Origin: Candidatus Zixiibacteriota bacterium
GTDB lineage: Bacteria > Zixibacteria > MSB-5A5 > GN15 > PGXB01
Direction: 5' to 3'
Assembly (NCBI GenBank): GCA_016933955.1
Contig: JAFGTT010000027.1
Span: forward strand, 62,001-126,000
DNA length: 64,000 nucleotides
Shown: positions 31,441-58,918 of the stretch, piece by piece
How the letters are laid out: every line of letters begins with the position of its first letter
Numbering within the stretch: the first letter of the stretch is position 1
Notes under the pieces: model-generated
The model's input: the letters and a program-made list of their open reading frames with translations, nothing else
What the model was told of the DNA's origin: nothing
Database searches by the model: none
Translations under genes and position numbers: made by a program

Positions 31441-31563
31441 TCATTTTGGTTTTTTACTTTCCTGAAAACGGACCCGGCCGCATCGGGGACAAATCCATTT
31501 ACGCTGTTTATGAAACGAACGTTTCTGCTCGACCATCTTTATTTTGCATTTGGGACAAATCAT
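31441..31563 (-). CDS. Small zinc-ribbon protein (40 residues)
   Basis: A 40-residue frame with two CPxC knuckles: MICPKCKIKM at the start (Cys3, Cys6) and WICPRCGRVRF (Cys25, Cys28), separated by a Lys/Arg/Gln-rich stretch. This is a complete zinc-ribbon. The ATG overlaps the stop of the upstream membrane-protein gene in an ATGA arrangement, strong support that it is translated. The basic character could suit nucleic-acid or protein binding. No known family is recognised; likely part of the membrane cassette encoded upstream. Confidence 0.72.
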   Translation of the reverse strand: MICPKCKIKMVEQKRSFHKQRKWICPRCGRVRFQESKKPK

Positions 31564-32171
31564 GACAGTATATGCAGGAAATCGGTCAGCAGGAAATCTA
31601 TCCGTCCGATGAAAGTCGACATCCGCGACATGACCGTATATCCAAAAGTGGCCCCGAAGAAAATCATCAGGAAGTAAGTGCCCAGTTTGGCCAGTTTTCC
31701 CATTGGACCTTTATGTTCACGGCTGAAATAGAAATAAGCCAGAGTCGCGATCAATCCAATCATAACCACCAGCGCCTCGAAATTAAATCCGCCCTCATCC
31801 CAAAGAGGCATCACCGTGGCCGACATCTGCTTGAGAGTCCGGGCATAAAGCATGGCCGGAATCGCTACCCCGGCCCCGGTCCCGATCATGAAGGCAATCG
31901 GAATTCTCGACAACCATGATGATTTTCCGGTGAAACGCGAAAACATCAGAAGCCCCAGGACCAGGGGAATAATCAGCCACAAGTGTCCATCCTGAAACAG
32001 CGGCACCAGGAGAAGTCCAACTACCGCTTTCTGCCAGTTGATAACCAGGATATAACCGATTGATAGGCCGATCAGCCATGATTCAGCCGCCCGGTAAAAC
32101 GGGTTATCGCGATATAAGAACGAATATATAGCCAAAGTCAGAATACCGGCAATGAGAACACCCATTTCCAC
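31560..32171 (-). CDS. Multi-pass membrane protein of an uncharacterised cassette
   Basis: 203 residues, about six predicted membrane helices: VLIAGILTLAIYSFLY, SWLIGLSIGYILVI, LWLIIPLVLGLLMF, IPIAFMIGTGAGVAIPAMLY, ALVVMIGLIATLAYFYF, and LGTYFLMIFFGATFGYTVM. I do not recognise a named family. GTG start at 32171 has AGAGG 7 nt upstream and lies 2 nt after the previous stop; ATG 32165 is an alternative. It overlaps the zinc-ribbon gene by 4 nt. The tight spacing of five genes from 34479 to 31441 implies one complex or pathway. Confidence 0.75.
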   Translation of the reverse strand: MEMGVLIAGILTLAIYSFLYRDNPFYRAAESWLIGLSIGYILVINWQKAVVGLLLVPLFQDGHLWLIIPLVLGLLMFSRFTGKSSWLSRIPIAFMIGTGAGVAIPAMLYARTLKQMSATVMPLWDEGGFNFEALVVMIGLIATLAYFYFSREHKGPMGKLAKLGTYFLMIFFGATFGYTVMSRMSTFIGRIDFLLTDFLHILS

Positions 32172-32173
32172 TG

Positions 32174-32980
32174 TCAGCCTCTCCCCTTCCGCATCCTGAA
32201 ATAAACAATATTACCGATTATGATCATGGCAATCACATATATATGAGCCGAGGTCTGGGCCAGAATCCCGCGATTCCCGGCCGCGCGCGTCCCCAGCAGG
32301 ATTTCATACTCGGCCGCCCCGACCAGTCCCCCAACCACCGAATAGAGTTGACCTGAGGCCAGATAGGGATCGTACGAGGTTATCATGGCCGAAGTAATCC
32401 CACCCATTATTTTCTGATGATAGCGGGCCCCGGCGTATTCCACCCACTGGGTGGTCCGATCACCATCGGCAATGGAGATGACCATATCGATATCATCATA
32501 ATTATCGACTGCCCGCATCATGGGGATGGTATCAACTCTGTTGCCGAGATAATCGAGTGGAAAGGCATGGCTGATCGATTCACCCATGGCCAGAAAAACC
32601 GAAATATGTTGCGGACGGAAACCAAGGAAGACATAATCACGACCGTATTCCCGGCCATACTCCTGAGCCGTTTTTGTCATCAGCATATAACCGATGGCGG
32701 TTCCCTCGGCAAAGGTGGACAGGCCGATAATTTTGAGATTTTTCCTGATAGCGTGACGTAACATGGCCAGCGCAATCGGTTTTATCTCAGGCAGCGACGA
32801 AGCCTCATGATCGAAACAGAACATGACCACCGTGGATTCCGGGAGAGACTCAATATAATCATATGATTTCTGTACCAGAGGCGATGGTTTAGTATCAAGA
32901 TCAATCCGAATAATATATGAAATAATAATAACCAGGGCCAATCCCGCGAAAATAATCCATCTGATCTTAAGTCGATTCAT
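32174..32980 (-). CDS. Membrane-anchored protein of an uncharacterised cassette
   Basis: 268 residues. N-terminal membrane segment (IIFAGLALVIIISYIIRI), a large soluble domain outside (about 30-235; ESLPESTVVMFCFDHEASSLPEI... and KIIGLSTFAEGTAIGYML), and a C-terminal membrane segment (HIYVIAMIIIGNIVYF). The alternating hydrophobic strands suggest an alpha/beta fold; no catalytic motif is recognised. ATG 32980 overlaps the previous stop (TGATG). Function unknown; a partner for the other cassette proteins is inferred from spacing. Confidence 0.73.
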   Translation of the reverse strand: MNRLKIRWIIFAGLALVIIISYIIRIDLDTKPSPLVQKSYDYIESLPESTVVMFCFDHEASSLPEIKPIALAMLRHAIRKNLKIIGLSTFAEGTAIGYMLMTKTAQEYGREYGRDYVFLGFRPQHISVFLAMGESISHAFPLDYLGNRVDTIPMMRAVDNYDDIDMVISIADGDRTTQWVEYAGARYHQKIMGGITSAMITSYDPYLASGQLYSVVGGLVGAAEYEILLGTRAAGNRGILAQTSAHIYVIAMIIIGNIVYFRMRKGRG

Positions 32981-33597
32981 CACTCACCGCTCAAATAAGT
33001 TCGTTCGATTCCCAGGATAACCCGCAGAGCTGTGGTCATGGAACCCAGACCGATTCCGATCAGGATGGCCCTCCGGGCGGCCATCGAAGGATAATTCTGC
33101 ACCCAGAAGGTTATTTTGGGAAACGATTCGGAAATCATCTCGGCAATCGGAACCCGACCGATAAGGACAATGACCGCTGTCACCAGAAGGATGGCCGCCG
33201 GTATGGAACGAGCATGGAACCCCCGGTATGAGGCTGAGGCGACAAAGAAAGCCAGAAGTGAAAAAACGGTGGCCTGTAGCGGAGCCAGCATATTTTCAAA
33301 AGCCCAAAGAAACGGCGAACCGAATTCAGTCCCGCCGATCAGAGCCAGAACAGGCATCAGGATCAGGCCCGACAGGGCAATCAATCGGTAGGGCCGGTCC
33401 TTTTTCCGGCTGATGGATTGCAGGTTGATTTTTATAAAACCAGCCACCCCAATAAACAGCGTAAAAGCGAAAATTATCTGCCACCAGTCCAGGATACTGC
33501 TATAAATCGAGATCGCCACTGGATGAGATAAAAAATACTGGACAAACATAATCACCCCGGAAATCAGGCAGACAGCCAGTGGTATTTTGGTTTTCAC
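32980..33597 (-). CDS. Multi-pass membrane protein of an uncharacterised cassette
   Basis: 205 residues, five to six hydrophobic segments (IPLAVCLISGVIMFVQYFL, IIFAFTLFIGVAGFI, IALSGLILMPVLALIGG, AAILLVTAVIVLIGRV, and a Gly-rich last segment AILIGIGLGSMTTALRVILG). The GTG start directly follows the upstream TAG stop, with GGAGG 9 nt before it. No family recognised. The last segment followed by IERTYL is similar in style to regulatory ends of complex subunits but offers no function. Confidence 0.72.
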   Translation of the reverse strand: MKTKIPLAVCLISGVIMFVQYFLSHPVAISIYSSILDWWQIIFAFTLFIGVAGFIKINLQSISRKKDRPYRLIALSGLILMPVLALIGGTEFGSPFLWAFENMLAPLQATVFSLLAFFVASASYRGFHARSIPAAILLVTAVIVLIGRVPIAEMISESFPKITFWVQNYPSMAARRAILIGIGLGSMTTALRVILGIERTYLSGE

Positions 33598-34479
33598 CTA
33601 AAACCTCCACCATGTCGAGGACGGGTCCAGTGTTGCCCAGATAGTCGCCAAAATGACAAAGACAGCAATAACGATCTTTATGATATCCTGGGCCTTGACC
33701 GAGGAGAGAATTTCTTTATTTCGCGACAGGTAACCCGAGGCGGCGAAAAGCTCCTCACCAATCAGGGTGTAATCGCAGGCAACAATGAAGAAGGCCAGCT
33801 GAATGGTCGAATCGGTTCCGGCTATCTGAATTGCCCCGATAGAATTCCCGGTTTCAGCCAAAATGAGTGATTCGGCTTCGAATGTCCCCAGCAGAAAAAT
33901 CGAAGCCGGTTTTTCGCGGCTGATAATACCATCCACTGCCGCGGCATAGCCGAATTGAGACGATGAAATATAAAATATATCATCGGGTCGATAGCGATCG
34001 GGATGACCGGCCTTTATACAACCCTCGCGGACCACTTCCTGCGCCACGGCCATTATAACCGGGTCGTGAGTCGGATAGATCAGTCGGCAATCATATTCGG
34101 CCGTCTTTTCGGCGACCGTAGAAAGAATATTCATGGAGGCTATGGTAGTCGGACGTTGAATATCGCCGCCATAGCCGGGGGTATATAGAAGGGATGAACC
34201 CATTTCAGTAGCCCGTCCGACGGCCTCCTCAACCGCCCTCAGGCCGGGAATTTCGCGAATATTGAATTTTCTGCCGGACTTTACCCACCAGATGGCATAT
34301 AAGACTATAATAAGCGAGATAATGGAAAACAGAAGGGTGGGAATGGTTTCATATTTCAGCCAGCCGGGATCAGAATTCGGTTCGACGGCCAAGGCAACAT
34401 CGAAAACCAAACCGAAAAGAATAATCTGGATTAATAACCGGCGATATCGTAGCTTGGTAAACACAAATAGAGTTAACAA
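33598..34479 (-). CDS. Membrane protein with conserved soluble domain (possibly DUF6754-like)
   Basis: 293 residues. Two N-terminal hydrophobic segments (LLIQIILFGLVFDVALA; IPTLLFSIISLIIVLYAIWWV), a soluble domain (about 75-230), and a C-terminal anchor (IIKIVIAVFVILATIWATL). The stretch AVEEAVGRATEMGSSLLYTP is very conserved-looking and recalls, from memory, DUF6754. The soluble domain has Rossmann-like alternation (IFLLGTFEAESLILAETG). TTG 34479 is a guess; GTG 34464 is also possible and neither has a clear ribosome-binding site. First gene of the cassette, divergent from the sugar ABC operon. Confidence 0.7.
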   Translation of the reverse strand: MLTLFVFTKLRYRRLLIQIILFGLVFDVALAVEPNSDPGWLKYETIPTLLFSIISLIIVLYAIWWVKSGRKFNIREIPGLRAVEEAVGRATEMGSSLLYTPGYGGDIQRPTTIASMNILSTVAEKTAEYDCRLIYPTHDPVIMAVAQEVVREGCIKAGHPDRYRPDDIFYISSSQFGYAAAVDGIISREKPASIFLLGTFEAESLILAETGNSIGAIQIAGTDSTIQLAFFIVACDYTLIGEELFAASGYLSRNKEILSSVKAQDIIKIVIAVFVILATIWATLDPSSTWWRF

Positions 34480-34547: not shown

Positions 34548-35789
34548 ATGAAAAAACTAATACTACTCGCAGTTATTGTAATACTGGCGGTCATGATCAG
34601 TTTTGGCTGCACCGGCAAAAATAAAACATCGGATAAAGTCACCCTGGATTGGTGGCAATTCTGGACCGATCCGGCTATCAGGCCGACCATCGAAAAAATG
34701 GTGGCCGATTATGAAACAGCTCACCCTGATGTTAAAATAAACATTACGGACTTGACCTGGGCTGACGGCCATGAGAAAATCGTCATTGCTTTTTCATCGG
34801 GATCTGCCCCGGATATAGTCGAACTTGGTTCCGACTGGGTGGCGGAATTTTCTTCAGCCGGCAAACTGGCCGATCTTGGCCTGTCCGTGATTACCGATAC
34901 GGCTGATTATATCGGCTGGTCCCCGGGAATCTGGAATGATTCAATATACGCTTTCCCCTGGATTCTGGGAACGCGAGTGTTATTCATAAATCAGGATCTG
35001 ACTCAAAAGGCCGGTCTTGACGAAAATTATGTCCCCCTCAACTGGGATCAAATGAAAGAGGCCTGTTATAAAATCGATTCGCTGGGTAAAGGTATTCATG
35101 GATTCGGTTCCAATGCCGCCGAGAAACATCGCTTGTACAAGAAATTCCTGCCGTTTTTCTGGGCGGCCGATGGGCGGATTGTCAGCAAAGATGGTAAGTA
35201 TGTCGTTTTCGCCAGCGACAAGGCCTACACGGCCCTGAAATTTTATAAGGAACTGACCGATAGTTGTTCCCTGGTGGACACCCAGCGTCGGCTTGAGGAT
35301 GCCTTTCTGGATGGCAAAATCGGCATGATTATATCCGGCGACTGGTTATTAAAGCGGATAAAAAACGAAAAACCGAAGATTAATTTCGTCACCACTTTTA
35401 TTCCGGGCCCCAAATTCCCGGGTAAGAGCTTTGCCGGAGGCGAATATCTGGCGGTCAGTCAATCATCGCCAAACAAAGCCGCGGCCATAGATTTTATTAA
35501 GTATCTTGCCTCACCGGAGAACCAGGTTCTTTTCTGTAAAGCCAATTATTCGGCCAGTCCCTCAAGCAAAAGTGCGGCATCCGATGAGTTTTTCACCTCC
35601 GATATTAATTTGCAGACATTTATCAAGCAGTTGAGTCTTTCGGAGATGACTCCGGCCACGCCCAACTGGGTTTATATCGAGGATATTATTGAGACGACTC
35701 TCGAAGATGTTCTTTTTAATGATGCCCCGATTGCCGAATCGCTCTATGAGGCAAACCAGAAGATAAAAAAATTGATTTTTGAAGAATGA
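34548..35789 (+). CDS. ABC transporter substrate-binding lipoprotein (sugar type)
   Basis: 413 residues. Signal peptide with lipobox-like end (VILAVMISFGC, Cys21) gives a lipid-anchored periplasmic binding protein. Solute-binding family 1 features include TLDWWQFWTDPAIRPTIEKM, VADYETAHPDVKI, SGSAPDIVELGSDW and FAGGEYLAVSQSSPNKAAAIDFIKYL. Likely binds a sugar or oligosaccharide; exact ligand cannot be told. The stop overlaps the first permease gene by 4 nt. Confidence 0.9.
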   Translation: MKKLILLAVIVILAVMISFGCTGKNKTSDKVTLDWWQFWTDPAIRPTIEKMVADYETAHPDVKINITDLTWADGHEKIVIAFSSGSAPDIVELGSDWVAEFSSAGKLADLGLSVITDTADYIGWSPGIWNDSIYAFPWILGTRVLFINQDLTQKAGLDENYVPLNWDQMKEACYKIDSLGKGIHGFGSNAAEKHRLYKKFLPFFWAADGRIVSKDGKYVVFASDKAYTALKFYKELTDSCSLVDTQRRLEDAFLDGKIGMIISGDWLLKRIKNEKPKINFVTTFIPGPKFPGKSFAGGEYLAVSQSSPNKAAAIDFIKYLASPENQVLFCKANYSASPSSKSAASDEFFTSDINLQTFIKQLSLSEMTPATPNWVYIEDIIETTLEDVLFNDAPIAESLYEANQKIKKLIFEE

Positions 35790-36649
35790 AATCGCGCCAG
35801 TTAGCCGGCTACCTGTTTGCATCGCCGTGGATTACCATCCTGCTGGCATTCTGGCTGTTTCCTCTTCTCTATTCGCTGGTTCTCGGATTTACAGATTACA
35901 GATTGATGAAACCGACCTTCGACTGGGTCGGCTTTGATAATTATATCCGGCTGTTTTCCGATCAGGGATTCCTTACCGCCTTGAAAAACACTTTTATTTT
36001 CGTTCTGGGGACAATTCCGATTACCACTGCTATCTCGCTGGTTTTCGCCTTATTGTTGAACAGAAACTTCCCCGGCCGAACAATTTTCCGCTCGGGCTAT
36101 TTCATGCCCTCGATCACCTCGCTGGTCGTTATCGCCCTTATTTTTAGCAATCTTTATTCGCGGGACGGTTACCTGTATCTACTGGCCGATATGCTTGGAA
36201 TCTCCCCGCCGGAGAACGGGTTTCTGCTGTCTAATAGGACTTCGCTGGCCGCTATAATGGCCATGGATATCTGGATGTCGGTCGGATACTATATGTTGCT
36301 GTTCCTGGCGGGCTTGAAATCGATTCCCGAGGAGTTATATGAGGCGGCGGAGGTGGCAGGAGCCAGTGCCAGAAGGAAATTCTTCAGTATCACCCTGCCC
36401 TTGTTAAAACCGGTCCTGCTTTTTATTATAGTCATCAACACCATTAAATCCTTCCAGGTTTTCATTGAAATATTTGTCATGACAAGGGGGCGTTATGGCA
36501 GTTCAACAGCCGTTTATTTTATTTACGAGACCGGCTTGAGTCGATTCGAATTCGGTTATGCTTCAGCCGCGGCCTATATTCTGTTTTTTATCATCGCCGT
36601 GTTTTCCGTGGTGCAACTGGGATTATTAAAGCAACGGGGGATTCAATGA
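35786..36649 (+). CDS. ABC sugar transporter permease, MalF/UgpA type
   Basis: 287 residues, six membrane helices, first at FASPWITILLAFWLFPLLYSLVLG. The inner-membrane coupling motif is EELYEAAEVAGASARRKFFSITLPLLKP (EAA loop), about residues 181-208, which docks to an ATPase. The protein overlaps both neighbours by 4 nt (binding protein upstream, second permease downstream). With the second permease it forms the membrane pore of a carbohydrate importer. Confidence 0.92.
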   Translation: MKSRQLAGYLFASPWITILLAFWLFPLLYSLVLGFTDYRLMKPTFDWVGFDNYIRLFSDQGFLTALKNTFIFVLGTIPITTAISLVFALLLNRNFPGRTIFRSGYFMPSITSLVVIALIFSNLYSRDGYLYLLADMLGISPPENGFLLSNRTSLAAIMAMDIWMSVGYYMLLFLAGLKSIPEELYEAAEVAGASARRKFFSITLPLLKPVLLFIIVINTIKSFQVFIEIFVMTRGRYGSSTAVYFIYETGLSRFEFGYASAAAYILFFIIAVFSVVQLGLLKQRGIQ

Positions 36650-37449
36650 AAATCCTCAGATATTTATTATTGATCGCCATTTTGTTGGTAATGGTTTTTC
36701 CGCTTTTCTGGATGTTCAGGGTTTCACTTCTTCCGACCGGCTCCGGCCTTACCCCGAAAGACCTGATCGGCCCATCAATTACAATGTCAATATATTATGA
36801 TATAGCTACTTCCGGCAATATGTTAAAGTATTTTATTAACTCAACAGTCGTCGGTATGATCGTAACCGGCGGGAATATTCTGTTTTGTTTTATGGCCGGA
36901 TATGCCTTTTCAAGATTCAAATTTATCGGCAAAAACATCCTGTTTTATTCGGTGATTCTGGTCTTGATGATCCCCGCTCATATTTTAATTATACCGCTTT
37001 ACCTTCTTATGTTTCATCTTGGCTTATATGATACCTATGCCGCCCTGATATTGCCTTTTCTGGTCAATCCTATCGGGATTTTTCTTATAAAGCAGTATAT
37101 TGACACTCTTCCATCCTCAATGGAGGAGGCGGCACGTATTGACGGCGCCGGGGAATTTCATATTCTGTTACGGGTAGTTATGCCTCTCTGCAAACCGGCC
37201 CTGGCGGTTCTGGCTATTCAGGTTTTTTTGACTAATTGGAATTCGTTCCTGTTTCCTTTTATTCTGACGGGTTCCGATTCGGTGCGGACTCTACCGGTCG
37301 GGCTGGCTCTATACCAGGGTCATCAGGCGATTGACTGGCAGCATTTGATGGCCGGATCGGCACTTGCGGTTATCCCGGTTTTGGTTATTTTCCTCTTCTT
37401 TCAAAGACAGATTGTTTCCGGCATCACCGCCGGAGCCATCAAACAGTGA
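36646..37449 (+). CDS. ABC sugar transporter permease, MalG/UgpE type
   Basis: 267 residues, six membrane helices. The EAA loop is MEEAARIDGAGEFHILLRVVMPLCKPAL (about residues 161-188). N-terminal FPLFWMFRVSLLP is typical for the MalG subfamily. Last gene of a binding-protein/permease/permease operon. No ATPase gene is present on either side; as in many sugar importers, a shared MsmX/UgpC-type ATPase elsewhere in the genome is likely. Confidence 0.92.
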   Translation: MKILRYLLLIAILLVMVFPLFWMFRVSLLPTGSGLTPKDLIGPSITMSIYYDIATSGNMLKYFINSTVVGMIVTGGNILFCFMAGYAFSRFKFIGKNILFYSVILVLMIPAHILIIPLYLLMFHLGLYDTYAALILPFLVNPIGIFLIKQYIDTLPSSMEEAARIDGAGEFHILLRVVMPLCKPALAVLAIQVFLTNWNSFLFPFILTGSDSVRTLPVGLALYQGHQAIDWQHLMAGSALAVIPVLVIFLFFQRQIVSGITAGAIKQ

Positions 37450-54574: not shown

Positions 54575-56737
54575 ATGACGAGGTTAAATTTTTCGTTAAT
54601 AACGCTCCTTTTAATATTATCCCTGCCCCTTCAATTCGCTTATGCCCAGCAAAGCACTTCCGGACCGATTCCTCCCCCCGGCACCGATCGCGGCCTGGTC
54701 CCCGAAAAACGATCACAGATGGTTATCCCGGATTTCCCCGCCTATATCTGGCACCACGGTTGCGGTCCGACGGCAACCGGAATGGTTATCGGATTCTGGG
54801 ATATGGTCGGTCCCGATCTTATCCCTGGCGACGCCTCGACTCAGACTGCCGCGGTCAATGCCATGATTGCCGATGACGGCAACAGCCCCATATGCGGAGG
54901 GTCATCTTTGGATCATTACCAGGATTATGCCTGCCCGATCGACTACTCCCCCGACCTTTATACCGATCGCTCGGAAACAGGAGGGGCCCATCAGGATAAT
55001 TGTCTCGCCGACCATATGAAAACATCGCAGAGTGCCTACTGGAATCGTTATGGCTGGAGCTGGTTTACCGACATTTCCGCTGGTTTTCTGGGCTATATCA
55101 ATCAGGTCGCTCCCGGACTTGATCCCGACGCCCAGGACCATGTTTTCACCTCCTTTTCTTTCGAAGATTATAAAACCGAAATAGACAATCTTCGCCCGGT
55201 CGTCTTGCTGGTCGATACCGATGGCGATGGTGAAACCGATCATTTCGTGACTGGAATCGGTTACGACGACGAGAATATGCTTTACGGCGTTCGCGATACC
55301 TGGGATCAGGGCCTTCACTGGTATGCCTGGCGCGGCCTTGGTTCCGGGATAACCTGGGGAATTTATGGTGTCACGACTTTCGGGAATATCGACTGGGCCC
55401 GCCCATACTGTATTGATGATTCGATCCTGATAATAAACACCTCTCTCGATGGATTCAATGATCCCGGCGACACTCTCGAGGTCTATTTCTTTATAAAGAA
55501 TTACGGCAAGGATGCGGAAAATCCGACAGTTACGCTCACCAGCGATAATCCCAATATTACCTATGGTACCCAGTCCGTATTCTATCCGATATTGAATGGT
55601 TCCGGGGCGCAAACAAATAATCTCGGACAGCCATTAACTTACATTATCCCCGAAATAACCAATCCCACTTTTGATTCGATTTTTATCACCATCGAGTCCG
55701 ACAACGGATCATACAGTAAAACCTTCGGCCGTGAGAATATCACCGGCCGGACAAGAATACTTATTGTGGATGATGATCGTGGTGACCTGTATGAGGATTT
55801 CTATCAGAGCGACTTGTATGAGAAAGATGTTCCCTATCATCGCTGGGAAAGCATTGTCTCGGGTTCTCCTTCTCTGTCGACCTTGGACCAGTACAGCATG
55901 GTTATCTGGTATACCGGTGACAGCACCGAAGATTTTCTTCAATCGGAAGATATCACCGCCATGATGGGGTACCTTGATAGCGGCGGGAATTTGTTTCTCA
56001 CCGGGCAGGGCTTACCGGAAGAATTACATGCCGAGGATTCCGCTTTTATGCATGACTATCTCCATGCCGATTACGATGGAATCCTGTTCTGGTATAAACA
56101 CATTGGGATAGATGGTTCGCCCATCGGAGATGGTATGTCCATTCGTTACTCCAGCGGCTCCAATCAGGTTTTTTCATTGTCGCAGCAGATTCTGGCGGCC
56201 GACGGTGCGCTTCCGGCCTTCCGTTTCAATAAGACTGGCGGAGGATATTCGGCCCTCAGTTTTGAGGGAGATTATAAAGTTGTCTTTTTTACTTTTGGTT
56301 ATGAAGCCATCGAGAACGATTTGCCTCAGTACAATTCCCGGAAGGAAGTGATGACCAGGATATTGCTTTTTCTTGATGGCTGGGTTGATCCCCCATGCTA
56401 TGATTCGGATTTCGATGGATATGGCGATCCCGGACATCCTGAAAATGCCTGCGCTACCGATAATTGCCCGGATATCTATAATCCCGATCAGACCGATAGC
56501 GATGGCGATGGAATCGGCGATGCCTGTGAAGGATATGTCTGCGGCGATGCCAATGCCAGTGGGTCGGTTAATATTCTCGATGTCACCTATCTCATTAATT
56601 ATCTGTATAAGGCCGGACCGGCACCGCTTCCCCCTGAGGCCGGTGATGCCAACGGGAATGGCGCCATCAACATTCTCGATGCCACTTATTTAATTAATTA
56701 TCTTTACAAATCCGGGCCGGCGCCGGTATGTCCCTGA
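54575..56737 (+). CDS. Secreted C39-like cysteine-peptidase-fold protein with TSP3-like repeat and two dockerin-like modules
   Basis: 720 residues. Signal peptide ending FAYAQ. Papain-like C39 region (about 50-280): HHGCGPTATGMVIGFWD (Cys63), TDHFVTGIGYDD (His223) and RDTWDQ (Asp241) could form a catalytic triad. Residues ~300-390 are an Ig-like beta-domain; ~395-615 resembles a class I glutamine-amidotransferase-like or DUF4350-like fold (RILIVDDDRGDLYEDFYQS). A calcium-binding TSP3-type stretch (NPDQTDSDGDGIGDACEG) and two dockerin-like modules (from 56540: CGDANASGSVNILDVTYL and GDANGNGAINILDATYL) end the protein. Secreted or surface-attached; substrate unknown. Promoter upstream; no terminator was found. 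Confidence 0.85.
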   Translation: MTRLNFSLITLLLILSLPLQFAYAQQSTSGPIPPPGTDRGLVPEKRSQMVIPDFPAYIWHHGCGPTATGMVIGFWDMVGPDLIPGDASTQTAAVNAMIADDGNSPICGGSSLDHYQDYACPIDYSPDLYTDRSETGGAHQDNCLADHMKTSQSAYWNRYGWSWFTDISAGFLGYINQVAPGLDPDAQDHVFTSFSFEDYKTEIDNLRPVVLLVDTDGDGETDHFVTGIGYDDENMLYGVRDTWDQGLHWYAWRGLGSGITWGIYGVTTFGNIDWARPYCIDDSILIINTSLDGFNDPGDTLEVYFFIKNYGKDAENPTVTLTSDNPNITYGTQSVFYPILNGSGAQTNNLGQPLTYIIPEITNPTFDSIFITIESDNGSYSKTFGRENITGRTRILIVDDDRGDLYEDFYQSDLYEKDVPYHRWESIVSGSPSLSTLDQYSMVIWYTGDSTEDFLQSEDITAMMGYLDSGGNLFLTGQGLPEELHAEDSAFMHDYLHADYDGILFWYKHIGIDGSPIGDGMSIRYSSGSNQVFSLSQQILAADGALPAFRFNKTGGGYSALSFEGDYKVVFFTFGYEAIENDLPQYNSRKEVMTRILLFLDGWVDPPCYDSDFDGYGDPGHPENACATDNCPDIYNPDQTDSDGDGIGDACEGYVCGDANASGSVNILDVTYLINYLYKAGPAPLPPEAGDANGNGAINILDATYLINYLYKSGPAPVCP

Positions 56738-56985: not shown

Positions 56986-58449
56986 ATGTGTCAGTCAAAG
57001 GGAATTATCGGTTTTCTGGTCCTTGCCATAGCTCTCTATGGCCTATCTGCATTTGCGCAGGTACCCCAGACCATCAACTATCAGGGACATTTACTCGATG
57101 ACCTGGGGAGTCCTGTCAGCGGCTCGGTTGCCATGACCTTCTCGATTTATGACGAGGCCAGTGGCGGCACTCAGATCTGGACACAATCTTTTCCGGCTGT
57201 CAATGTCGTCGAGGGCGGGTTTACGGTTATATTGGGTGATGGCGACCCGATCGAACCCGACGTTTTCAACTCATCCGACCGCTGGCTGGAGGTAATCGTT
57301 GATGGTCAACCAATCAATCCCCGGGTCAAATTGACCTCAATGCCCTATGCCCAAAAGGTGGCCACTATCGAGGGTGCTCAGGCCGGATCAATCACCGGGA
57401 CTTTTAAGATAACCCCGGGGACCAAAAGTGATATGATGGCTCCCCTGCATACGGGGACACCGCTTGTCGAAATCGGTCCCAATTTTACGGTTGATGCCAC
57501 CAATGGCCGGCCCGGTTCATTGCATTTGCTTGACATTAATTCCAATATCGCCATTGACATCGACGGCCAGGATACCACCATCGGAATCGGCCTTCCTCTT
57601 CCCGCCGCCAATCTTCATGTCAATGGTGATATATATACTCTGGGAGGTAATGGTGATATTACGAGTGACGGAAACATTAACGCTCTGGACCTGATCAGGT
57701 ATGTTGATTATCTGGAACATGCTGCCGTTCTTACCGAGGAGCAATATGCCAATGGCGATATGGATGGCGATGGACGGGTCACCTATGATGATATGGCAAT
57801 TTTAATGGGTATCCAATATGGCGCCCTTTCCAAAACCGAATCAATGAGACAAACCCACAGAATATATGGTACGGTATATACCGGTTCAACCACCGGAGAT
57901 GCCTTTTTCATTCAACCCAAAGCCGGTATAGCCACCAGTTCTCCAAAGGCATCATTGCATGTCAATGGTGACATTTACACTCTCGGCGGTGATGGCGATA
58001 TTGACCTGAGTACCACCCTCGATATTGCCGATTTGACGGTTTATGTCAATTATCTATATATGGGTGGATCACTTACCAAAGAGGCTTATGCGCACGCCGA
58101 TGTCGATGGCGACGGCAGAGTCACACCGGACGATATGTCCCTGGCAACACTGATATTCGGCGGGGATACCAAGGATAACGCCATTCGCAGGGTTCATGGT
58201 TCATGCGGCGCAATCGTCGATGCCGGAACCGATGCATTCTATGTTCGGGGTGATCTGGGAGTCGGAACGGCGGCCCCGGCGGAAAAAGTGCAAGTATTTT
58301 GGGCCAATAATGTCGATGCCGAGGTCGGCCGCGGGACTACTAATACCAGCATTACCTTTTTATCTCTCAGAAACGCCAATGGAACCAAGTGCTATATATA
58401 TCCCGATCCGACCGGAACCGTTCTTATGGTTTCCACAACCAAACCATAA
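56986..58449 (+). CDS. Secreted fibre-like protein with two internal dockerin-like insertions
   Basis: 487 residues. Signal peptide (LVLAIALYGLSAFAQ). The N-terminal VPQTINYQGHLLDDLGSPVSG domain (about 25-120) is a family I know from FCB-type surface and tail-fibre-like proteins. After it the chain repeats LHVNGDIYTLGG: at about residues 208 and 323, each time followed by a dockerin/EF-hand-like stretch (DGNINALDLIRYVDYLEH..NGDMDGDGRVTYDDM and TLDIADLTVYVNYLYMGG..HADVDGDGRVTPDDM). The C-terminal part (GVGTAAPAEKVQVFW) looks like fibre/peptidase-S74 preceding repeats, without the S74 itself. A surface protein of unknown role. Its stop (58447-58449) overlaps the ribosome-binding site of the next gene. 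Confidence 0.8.
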   Translation: MCQSKGIIGFLVLAIALYGLSAFAQVPQTINYQGHLLDDLGSPVSGSVAMTFSIYDEASGGTQIWTQSFPAVNVVEGGFTVILGDGDPIEPDVFNSSDRWLEVIVDGQPINPRVKLTSMPYAQKVATIEGAQAGSITGTFKITPGTKSDMMAPLHTGTPLVEIGPNFTVDATNGRPGSLHLLDINSNIAIDIDGQDTTIGIGLPLPAANLHVNGDIYTLGGNGDITSDGNINALDLIRYVDYLEHAAVLTEEQYANGDMDGDGRVTYDDMAILMGIQYGALSKTESMRQTHRIYGTVYTGSTTGDAFFIQPKAGIATSSPKASLHVNGDIYTLGGDGDIDLSTTLDIADLTVYVNYLYMGGSLTKEAYAHADVDGDGRVTPDDMSLATLIFGGDTKDNAIRRVHGSCGAIVDAGTDAFYVRGDLGVGTAAPAEKVQVFWANNVDAEVGRGTTNTSITFLSLRNANGTKCYIYPDPTGTVLMVSTTKP

Positions 58450-58459
58450 GGAGGAATCG

Positions 58460-58918
58460 ATGAATTATAAAATAATAAATCACGCGGCCATAATCCCGCT
58501 GGTTATAATATTTATGATGCTTCTGCCGGTATCAGGAGTGAACGCTCAGGATATTGACTGGCAGGTCGTTTCTTCCGGCGGCGTTATCGATGCCGCTTCG
58601 ACCGGTTACCGGTTAAGCGCCACGGTCGGACAAACCGCCATCGGCAGTGGATTTTCCACTGATTACAGCCTCAGTCATGGTTTCTGGCAGTATTTCGGCG
58701 AACCGGGATGTTGCGATTTACCGGGAGATGCCAACAACAACGGGGCGGTCAATATCCTCGATGTCACTTACTTGATCTCATACCTGTATAAATCCGGACC
58801 GCCGCCGCCGTGTCCTGAGGAAGGTGACGCCAACGGCAATGGCGCCACCAACATTCTCGATGCCACCTATCTGATAAGCTATCTATATAAGTCCGGACCG
58901 GCACCGATCTGTCCGTAA
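58460..58918 (+). CDS. Small secreted protein with two dockerin-like modules
   Basis: 152 residues from ATG 58460 with AAGGAGG (58448-58454) 5 nt upstream. Signal peptide MNYKIINHAAIIPLVIIFMM.. ending NAQ. A short domain (IDWQVVSSGGVIDAASTGY..LSATVGQTAIGSG..YSLSHGFWQYFG) is a small repeat domain I associate with Zixibacteria secreted proteins; function unknown. Two dockerin-like modules follow (GDANNNGAVNILDVTYL; GDANGNGATNILDATYL). The frame is open further upstream within the previous gene, but the ribosome-binding site supports 58460. Probably co-transcribed with the fibre-like gene. Confidence 0.82.
   Translation: MNYKIINHAAIIPLVIIFMMLLPVSGVNAQDIDWQVVSSGGVIDAASTGYRLSATVGQTAIGSGFSTDYSLSHGFWQYFGEPGCCDLPGDANNNGAVNILDVTYLISYLYKSGPPPPCPEEGDANGNGATNILDATYLISYLYKSGPAPICP

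Follow-up and report, generated by a model that had tools for sequence, protein, structure and literature searches.

In type IV pilus and type II secretion systems an ASKHA-fold cytosolic protein (PilM/FtsA or GspL) is coupled to bitopic membrane proteins. The barrel-sandwich subunits of the RnfC/NqrA type are peripheral partners of membrane complexes, and the diol dehydratase reactivase is a chaperone of a B12 enzyme. GlmL/MutL (PF13941) has been described as a chaperone that reactivates glutamate mutase (PMC4682846). DUF6754 (PF20539) is itself a domain of unknown function, and no paper on DUF6754, PF20539 or PF13941 was found among the open-licence papers searched.

Here we analysed a gene cassette that begins with a clear DUF6754 member and lies in a window of 64,000 nucleotides (the whole stretch of DNA analysed) from a Candidatus Zixiibacteriota bacterium. 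The five genes are called P1 to P5 in the order of transcription, and AY designates a partner protein starting with (M)AHAYTPGL. The ATPase that accompanies the cassette is, like the glutamate mutase accessory, a clear PF13941 member. It differs from GlmL in falling below the equivalog cut-off and in having AY and P1-P4 as its constant partners; glutamate mutase genes were not seen among its annotated neighbours. AY weakly resembles the barrel-sandwich domain of RnfC/NqrA (PF13375, PF05896; best E 2.3e-4, all matches under the curated cut-offs) and may likewise be the peripheral partner of a membrane complex, whereas no Rnf/Nqr family of Pfam is matched by P2 or P4. Molybdenum-cofactor carrier/LOG Rossmann proteins are among the better fold matches of P1 and P3 (TM about 0.5 by target length), but with E of 1e-3 or worse, high rmsd and 10-14% identity, and the domains of P1 and P3 are flanked on both sides by transmembrane (TM) helices. 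The likeness of the MutL-P1-P4 set to PilM/FtsA/GspL is offered as an idea; here the partner ATPase is MutL (PF13941) and no pilus or secretin genes recur nearby.

The cassette and its copies

A previous interpretation of this DNA, made without database searches (the sequence-only reading), had described five tightly packed genes. All five open reading frames were confirmed on the minus strand from 34479 to 31441, successive genes being separated or overlapping by 0, 1, 2 and 4 nt (Table 1). P3 starts with the ATG at 32980 and overlaps P2 by 1 nt; an alternative GTG lies at 32983. DUF6754, which that reading had suggested for the first protein, proved right, as P1 matches PF20539 over positions 4-249 of the 257 of the profile with an E of 2.3e-101 and 338.7 bits (gathering cut-off 27). 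The division into two polytopic and two anchored soluble-domain proteins, the lack of a known catalytic motif and the idea of a conserved multi-subunit membrane system are all supported. The five genes had also been taken as one unit. This holds for P1-P4 but not for P5, which is not a constant member, and the unit is also larger and includes genes elsewhere in the genome. Neither the repetition of the cassette nor the MutL, AY and small-protein partners described below had been noticed in the sequence-only reading.

Table 1 Genes of the cassette in the window and other cassettes of the same genome
Feature	Location	Coordinates	Strand	Details
P1, DUF6754 protein	window	33598..34479	-	293 aa, TTG start
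P2, polytopic, with about 6 TM helices, no known family	window	32980..33597	-	205 aa, 0-nt gap after P1
P3, TM, Rossmann-like domain (likely extracytoplasmic), TM, no known family	window	32174..32980	-	268 aa
P4, polytopic membrane protein, no known family	window	31560..32171	-	203 aa, 2-nt gap after P3
P5, zinc ribbon with two CxxC pairs	window	31441..31563	-	40 aa, 4-nt overlap with P4
Three cassettes head to tail	L021	5862-17050		window's genome
One solitary cassette	L022	6784-9955		window's genome

Two other regions of the window encode secreted-looking proteins with terminal dockerin-like repeats (54575-56737 and 58196-58918; GDANxxGxxNILDxTYLIxYLYKxGPxP). Sugar ABC importer genes (a binding protein and two permeases) lie at 34548-37449, divergent from the cassette and without an adjoining ATPase gene.

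The window's genome (Zixibacteria) carries DUF6754 five times, each time with P1-P2-P3-P4 complete and in order. The five copies must be old because their pairwise identities are low (46-61% for P1, 35-51% for P2, 29-39% for P3 and 38-51% for P4). DUF6754 was found in 132 of the 132 sampled genomes of the phylum (Candidatus Zixiibacteriota), mostly in several copies, and in none of 14 control genomes. Among the matches listed (80 of at least 578) the record titles also name WOR-3/Stahlbacteria, Latescibacterota, Eisenbacteria, Fermentibacteria, Cloacimonadota, Poribacteria, Edwardsbacteria, Armatimonadota, Planctomycetota, Bdellovibrionales, Mcinerneyibacteriota and others, and lineages missing from this sample of 80 loci are not to be read as absences. 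DUF6754 was not found in plasmid or viral collections.

The survey of gene neighbourhoods that the sequence-only reading had proposed, looking for the same order across genomes, was passed by P1-P4. Among the matches listed, 84 P1 copies from other genomes had the at least 2.6 kb of downstream sequence that makes a copy testable, and in 79 of them, from about 15 named lineages, the order is P1-P2-P3-P4. The five exceptions comprise a single swap of P3 and P4 (P1-P2-P4-P3 on a TA06 contig, L064:759-3031), one copy without P2 (L137) and three without any of P2-P4. Since 79 of 84 copies elsewhere, and four further complete copies in the genome itself, keep P2-P3-P4 after P1, the conserved order is not due to chance, and the core unit is P1-P2-P3-P4 rather than five genes. 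Distances between cassettes correlate from one subunit to another (r 0.53-0.77, to which shared phylogeny contributes). Whichever of the four subunits is compared, a given position in the tandem trio of G000 is mostly paired with the same cassettes of L110 and L133; the four genes are therefore duplicated and inherited together. In two related species (G007 and G013; L176/L177) P1 of the solitary cassette type is duplicated in tandem next to the panC-like gene. An in-frame TGA of P1 in these two genomes was considered as a selenocysteine codon and rejected, the TGA being a stop upstream of the start codon.

P5 had been proposed as an accessory; as a general accessory it is not supported by the survey. 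A zinc ribbon of this type lies downstream of P4 in nine of the loci listed (L061, L062, L065, L066, L069, L072, L075, L079 and L122), which are zixibacterial or group with zixibacterial loci and all have a window-type cassette; none was found behind the other cassette types in the loci listed. The nine proteins share the core HKxRKWxC and conserve the two CxxC pairs, as expected of a zinc ribbon, and P5 shows many zinc-ribbon resemblances but none above any Pfam or NCBIfam cut-off. P5 is a local accessory of the window-type cassette only. The L065 contig is titled Ignavibacterium sp.; its window-type cassette shares 60-77% identity with that of the window and is accompanied by the zinc ribbon and zixibacterial neighbours. 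The contig is probably a mislabelled Zixibacteria MAG.

Families, folds and topology of the subunits

P2, P3 and P4 of the window belong to no Pfam or NCBIfam family. When their homologues were scanned one by one, those of P2 (n=62) and P4 (n=59) gave stray weak Pfam matches only and those of P3 (n=86) a single weak match. Searches of PDB sequences with P1-P4 profiles returned nothing meaningful, and the PADLOC and PHROGs models gave no match at E 0.01 to P1-P4, MutL, AY or the small partner protein described below, so that nothing marks the set as defence or phage genes. Conserved motifs are present in the polytopic subunits, with YRxFRAR and a C-terminal GIERxxLG in P2, and LY(K/R)DN, FSxEHxG and FGYTVMxRxS in P4.

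P1 and P3 were modelled with AlphaFold2, each from an alignment of 86 sequences (pLDDT 89.1 and pTM 0.81 for P1, pLDDT 95.8 and pTM 0.90 for P3). Both models show a TM helix, a helix, six alternating strand-helix units and a TM helix, and this identical order of secondary-structure elements suggests that P1 and P3 may share a common fold. Profile comparisons of P1 with P3, and of P2 with P4, detected no sequence homology. A fold search of the PDB gave generic Rossmann matches for both proteins, with a best E of 3.7e-3 (TMt 0.51) for P1 and LOG/Moco-carrier-type matches at TMt 0.45-0.52 and E of about 0.01-0.02 for P3; a viral structure library gave nothing for P3. Assignment of P1 and P3 to the LOG/Moco-carrier superfamily was rejected, the PGGxGT signature being absent from the P1 consensus and the E values not significant.

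P1 comprises a signal-anchor or short outside segment, a TM helix at about 46-64, the Rossmann-like domain and a C-terminal TM helix at about 269-287. In most P1 homologues elsewhere the N-terminal part outside the cell is longer, and the examined ones have an FN3-like domain there; the P1 paralogues of the window's genome have such an extra FN3-like part, and the L092 homologue matches Pfam fn3 just under the cut-off. From hydropathy and positive-inside reasoning the DUF6754 domain is likely cytosolic, because the FN3-like part precedes the first TM helix of P1 and a basic segment comes after it. By the same reasoning the domain of P3 likely lies outside the cell, because both ends of P3 are basic.

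Partner proteins outside the cassette

Beyond local synteny, clustering of the neighbours of DUF6754 (80 loci of at least 578) brought out three recurring families: an ATPase of about 600 aa, AY of about 375 aa and a protein of about 100-150 aa. In many genomes the small protein, MutL and AY lie upstream of P1, and the operon small-MutL-AY-P1-P2-P3-P4 recurs in several phyla, for example at L096 and, in Planctomycetota, at L160, L164 and L165. The ATPase is a MutL above the PF13941 gathering score (414 bits and E 9e-124 for the L139 copy), and the window's genome has two copies (438.8 and 351.9 bits). AY, a barrel-sandwich protein of 375 aa, belongs to no Pfam family and stays below threshold for RnfC_N (21.6 against 25.6), NQRA_N (19.1 against 25) and biotin_lipoyl. 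Neither AY nor MutL gave a significant match to PDB sequences.

MutL and AY are adjacent in the window's genome, on another contig and not beside the cassettes. In the region L146:10706-15314 the pair is followed by ExbB-, ExbD-, TonB/TolA-, TolB-, Pal- and YbgF-like genes. ExbB/ExbD was considered as a cassette partner and set aside as too rare for evidence, being near the set in two of about 96 loci (L139, L160) besides this AY locus. On contig C26 of the same genome (L147:7563-10355) a protein of 931 aa consists of a MutL-family ATPase fused to an AY-like part. AY-like matches also lie in open frames of about 900-1030 aa in several other lineages, and a fused second version of MutL-AY is therefore common.

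Co-occurrence extends these links to genomes in which the genes are scattered. Among 149 Planctomycetota genomes P1 and P4 share 40 of 41 (Fisher 5e-34), P1 and AY occur together in 36 (P1 only in 5, AY only in 1, neither in 107; Fisher 6e-28) and P1 and MutL together in 36 (P1 only in 5, MutL only in 5, neither in 103; Fisher 1e-23), and in Bdellovibrionota P1 (above cut-off) and AY are found in the same 3 of 144 genomes (Fisher 2e-6); these tests count genomes and not independent gains, so that the p-values overstate independence. Genomes from other lineages that bear a cassette also encode AY in 38 of 41 cases. In G338, G419 and G451, P1-AY is distant from P4 and all are retained, with MutL separate too in G338 and G451. 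That the genes are kept even where they are unlinked speaks most strongly for a joint function, and P1-P4 with MutL/AY are well supported as a joint set. Odd Planctomycetota genomes, such as G381 with AY, MutL and P4 but not P1, are probably incomplete assemblies.

Proposed mechanism, alternatives and significance

From the gene set, its order and co-retention, the folds and the likely topology, all obtained by computation, we infer a physical complex, docking and ATP coupling. P1-P4 would form an inner-membrane complex working with a cytosolic ATPase module of MutL (ASKHA), AY and the small adaptor, a proposal whose chances of being right we consider about even. P2 and P4 would make up the membrane core. 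The AY-MutL module would dock on the cytosolic Rossmann-like DUF6754 domain of P1, since AY is the nearest neighbour of P1 and the two remain linked when P2-P4 move away. The other side of the membrane would carry the Rossmann-like domain of P3 and, exposed to the periplasm, the outer FN3-bearing part that most P1 homologues possess. By consuming ATP, MutL would drive or reset a cycle of conformational changes, which would be transmitted through the membrane to P3 and FN3; our guess is that envelope transport or assembly could be the output of this cycle. Where a genome has several cassettes, these would be paralogous versions of the membrane unit that share one or two MutL-AY pairs. The fusion of MutL and AY in the window's own genome counts for the complex, while the location of MutL-AY away from the cassettes in that genome counts against it, as does the fact that the sequences name no substrate. 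The description of GlmL/MutL as a reactivating chaperone of glutamate mutase (PMC4682846) weakens the engine role; MutL may maintain the complex instead of powering it.

MutL-AY might accordingly be an assembly or reactivation chaperone of P1-P4, which would run otherwise or be passive. Two or more cassettes being served by one or two MutL-AY pairs would fit such a role, as would the description of MutL as reactivating glutamate mutase (PMC4682846) and the neighbouring PF13941 protein, whose best NCBIfam matches (L139 copy) are GlmL-type. However, that copy misses the equivalog cut-off of NF040745 (217.5 against 475 bits), and no glutamate mutase subunit or B12 enzyme was recognised among those recurrent neighbours that were annotated. 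We regard the chaperone role as a real but minor possibility.

P1-P4 could also be a membrane enzyme or sensor, with a Rossmann-like domain on each side of the membrane to bind small ligands, which we think unlikely. P1 has 27 residues that are invariant among 86 homologues, many of them charged (R89, E92, R188, E209, D236, E242, E243, D265 and K268), P3 has invariant E66, Q212, E227, H247 and N258, and several of these residues follow directly after strands, as in a ligand pocket. Yet no cofactor motif is present, the best PDB matches are generic Rossmann proteins (E of about 1e-3 to 4e-3, TM at most about 0.5), and for P3 a domain outside the cell would make a nucleotide cofactor improbable. 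An accessory role of the window cassette for the divergent sugar importer genes is very improbable. Such neighbours are kept at many zixibacterial window-type loci, but the other four cassettes of the genome and most of those in other phyla are not beside importer genes.

To return to the proposed membrane complex with its MutL-AY module, it might represent a new class of transenvelope machine, with four new protein families, related Rossmann-like domains on both faces and several paralogues in each cell, powered by a MutL-type ASKHA ATPase through a barrel-sandwich adaptor and belonging to the core of a whole phylum; we advance this broader claim as doubtful. No description of a DUF6754 system was found among the open-licence papers searched, and we rate the system as new because no membrane subunit belongs to a characterised family. 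Four of the seven proteins of the set (P2, P3, P4 and AY) are without any family, and DUF6754 is without an assigned role.

The cassette looks like a widespread cell-envelope machine. For a domain present in every sampled genome of a phylum and scattered in Planctomycetota, Bdellovibrionota and many candidate phyla, a basic role in the cell envelope would ordinarily be expected. The near-perfect co-retention of scattered genes gives a short list of partners, with which the roles of DUF6754 and of a MutL that does not serve glutamate mutase become testable, also in the sampled Planctomycetota with single-contig genomes.
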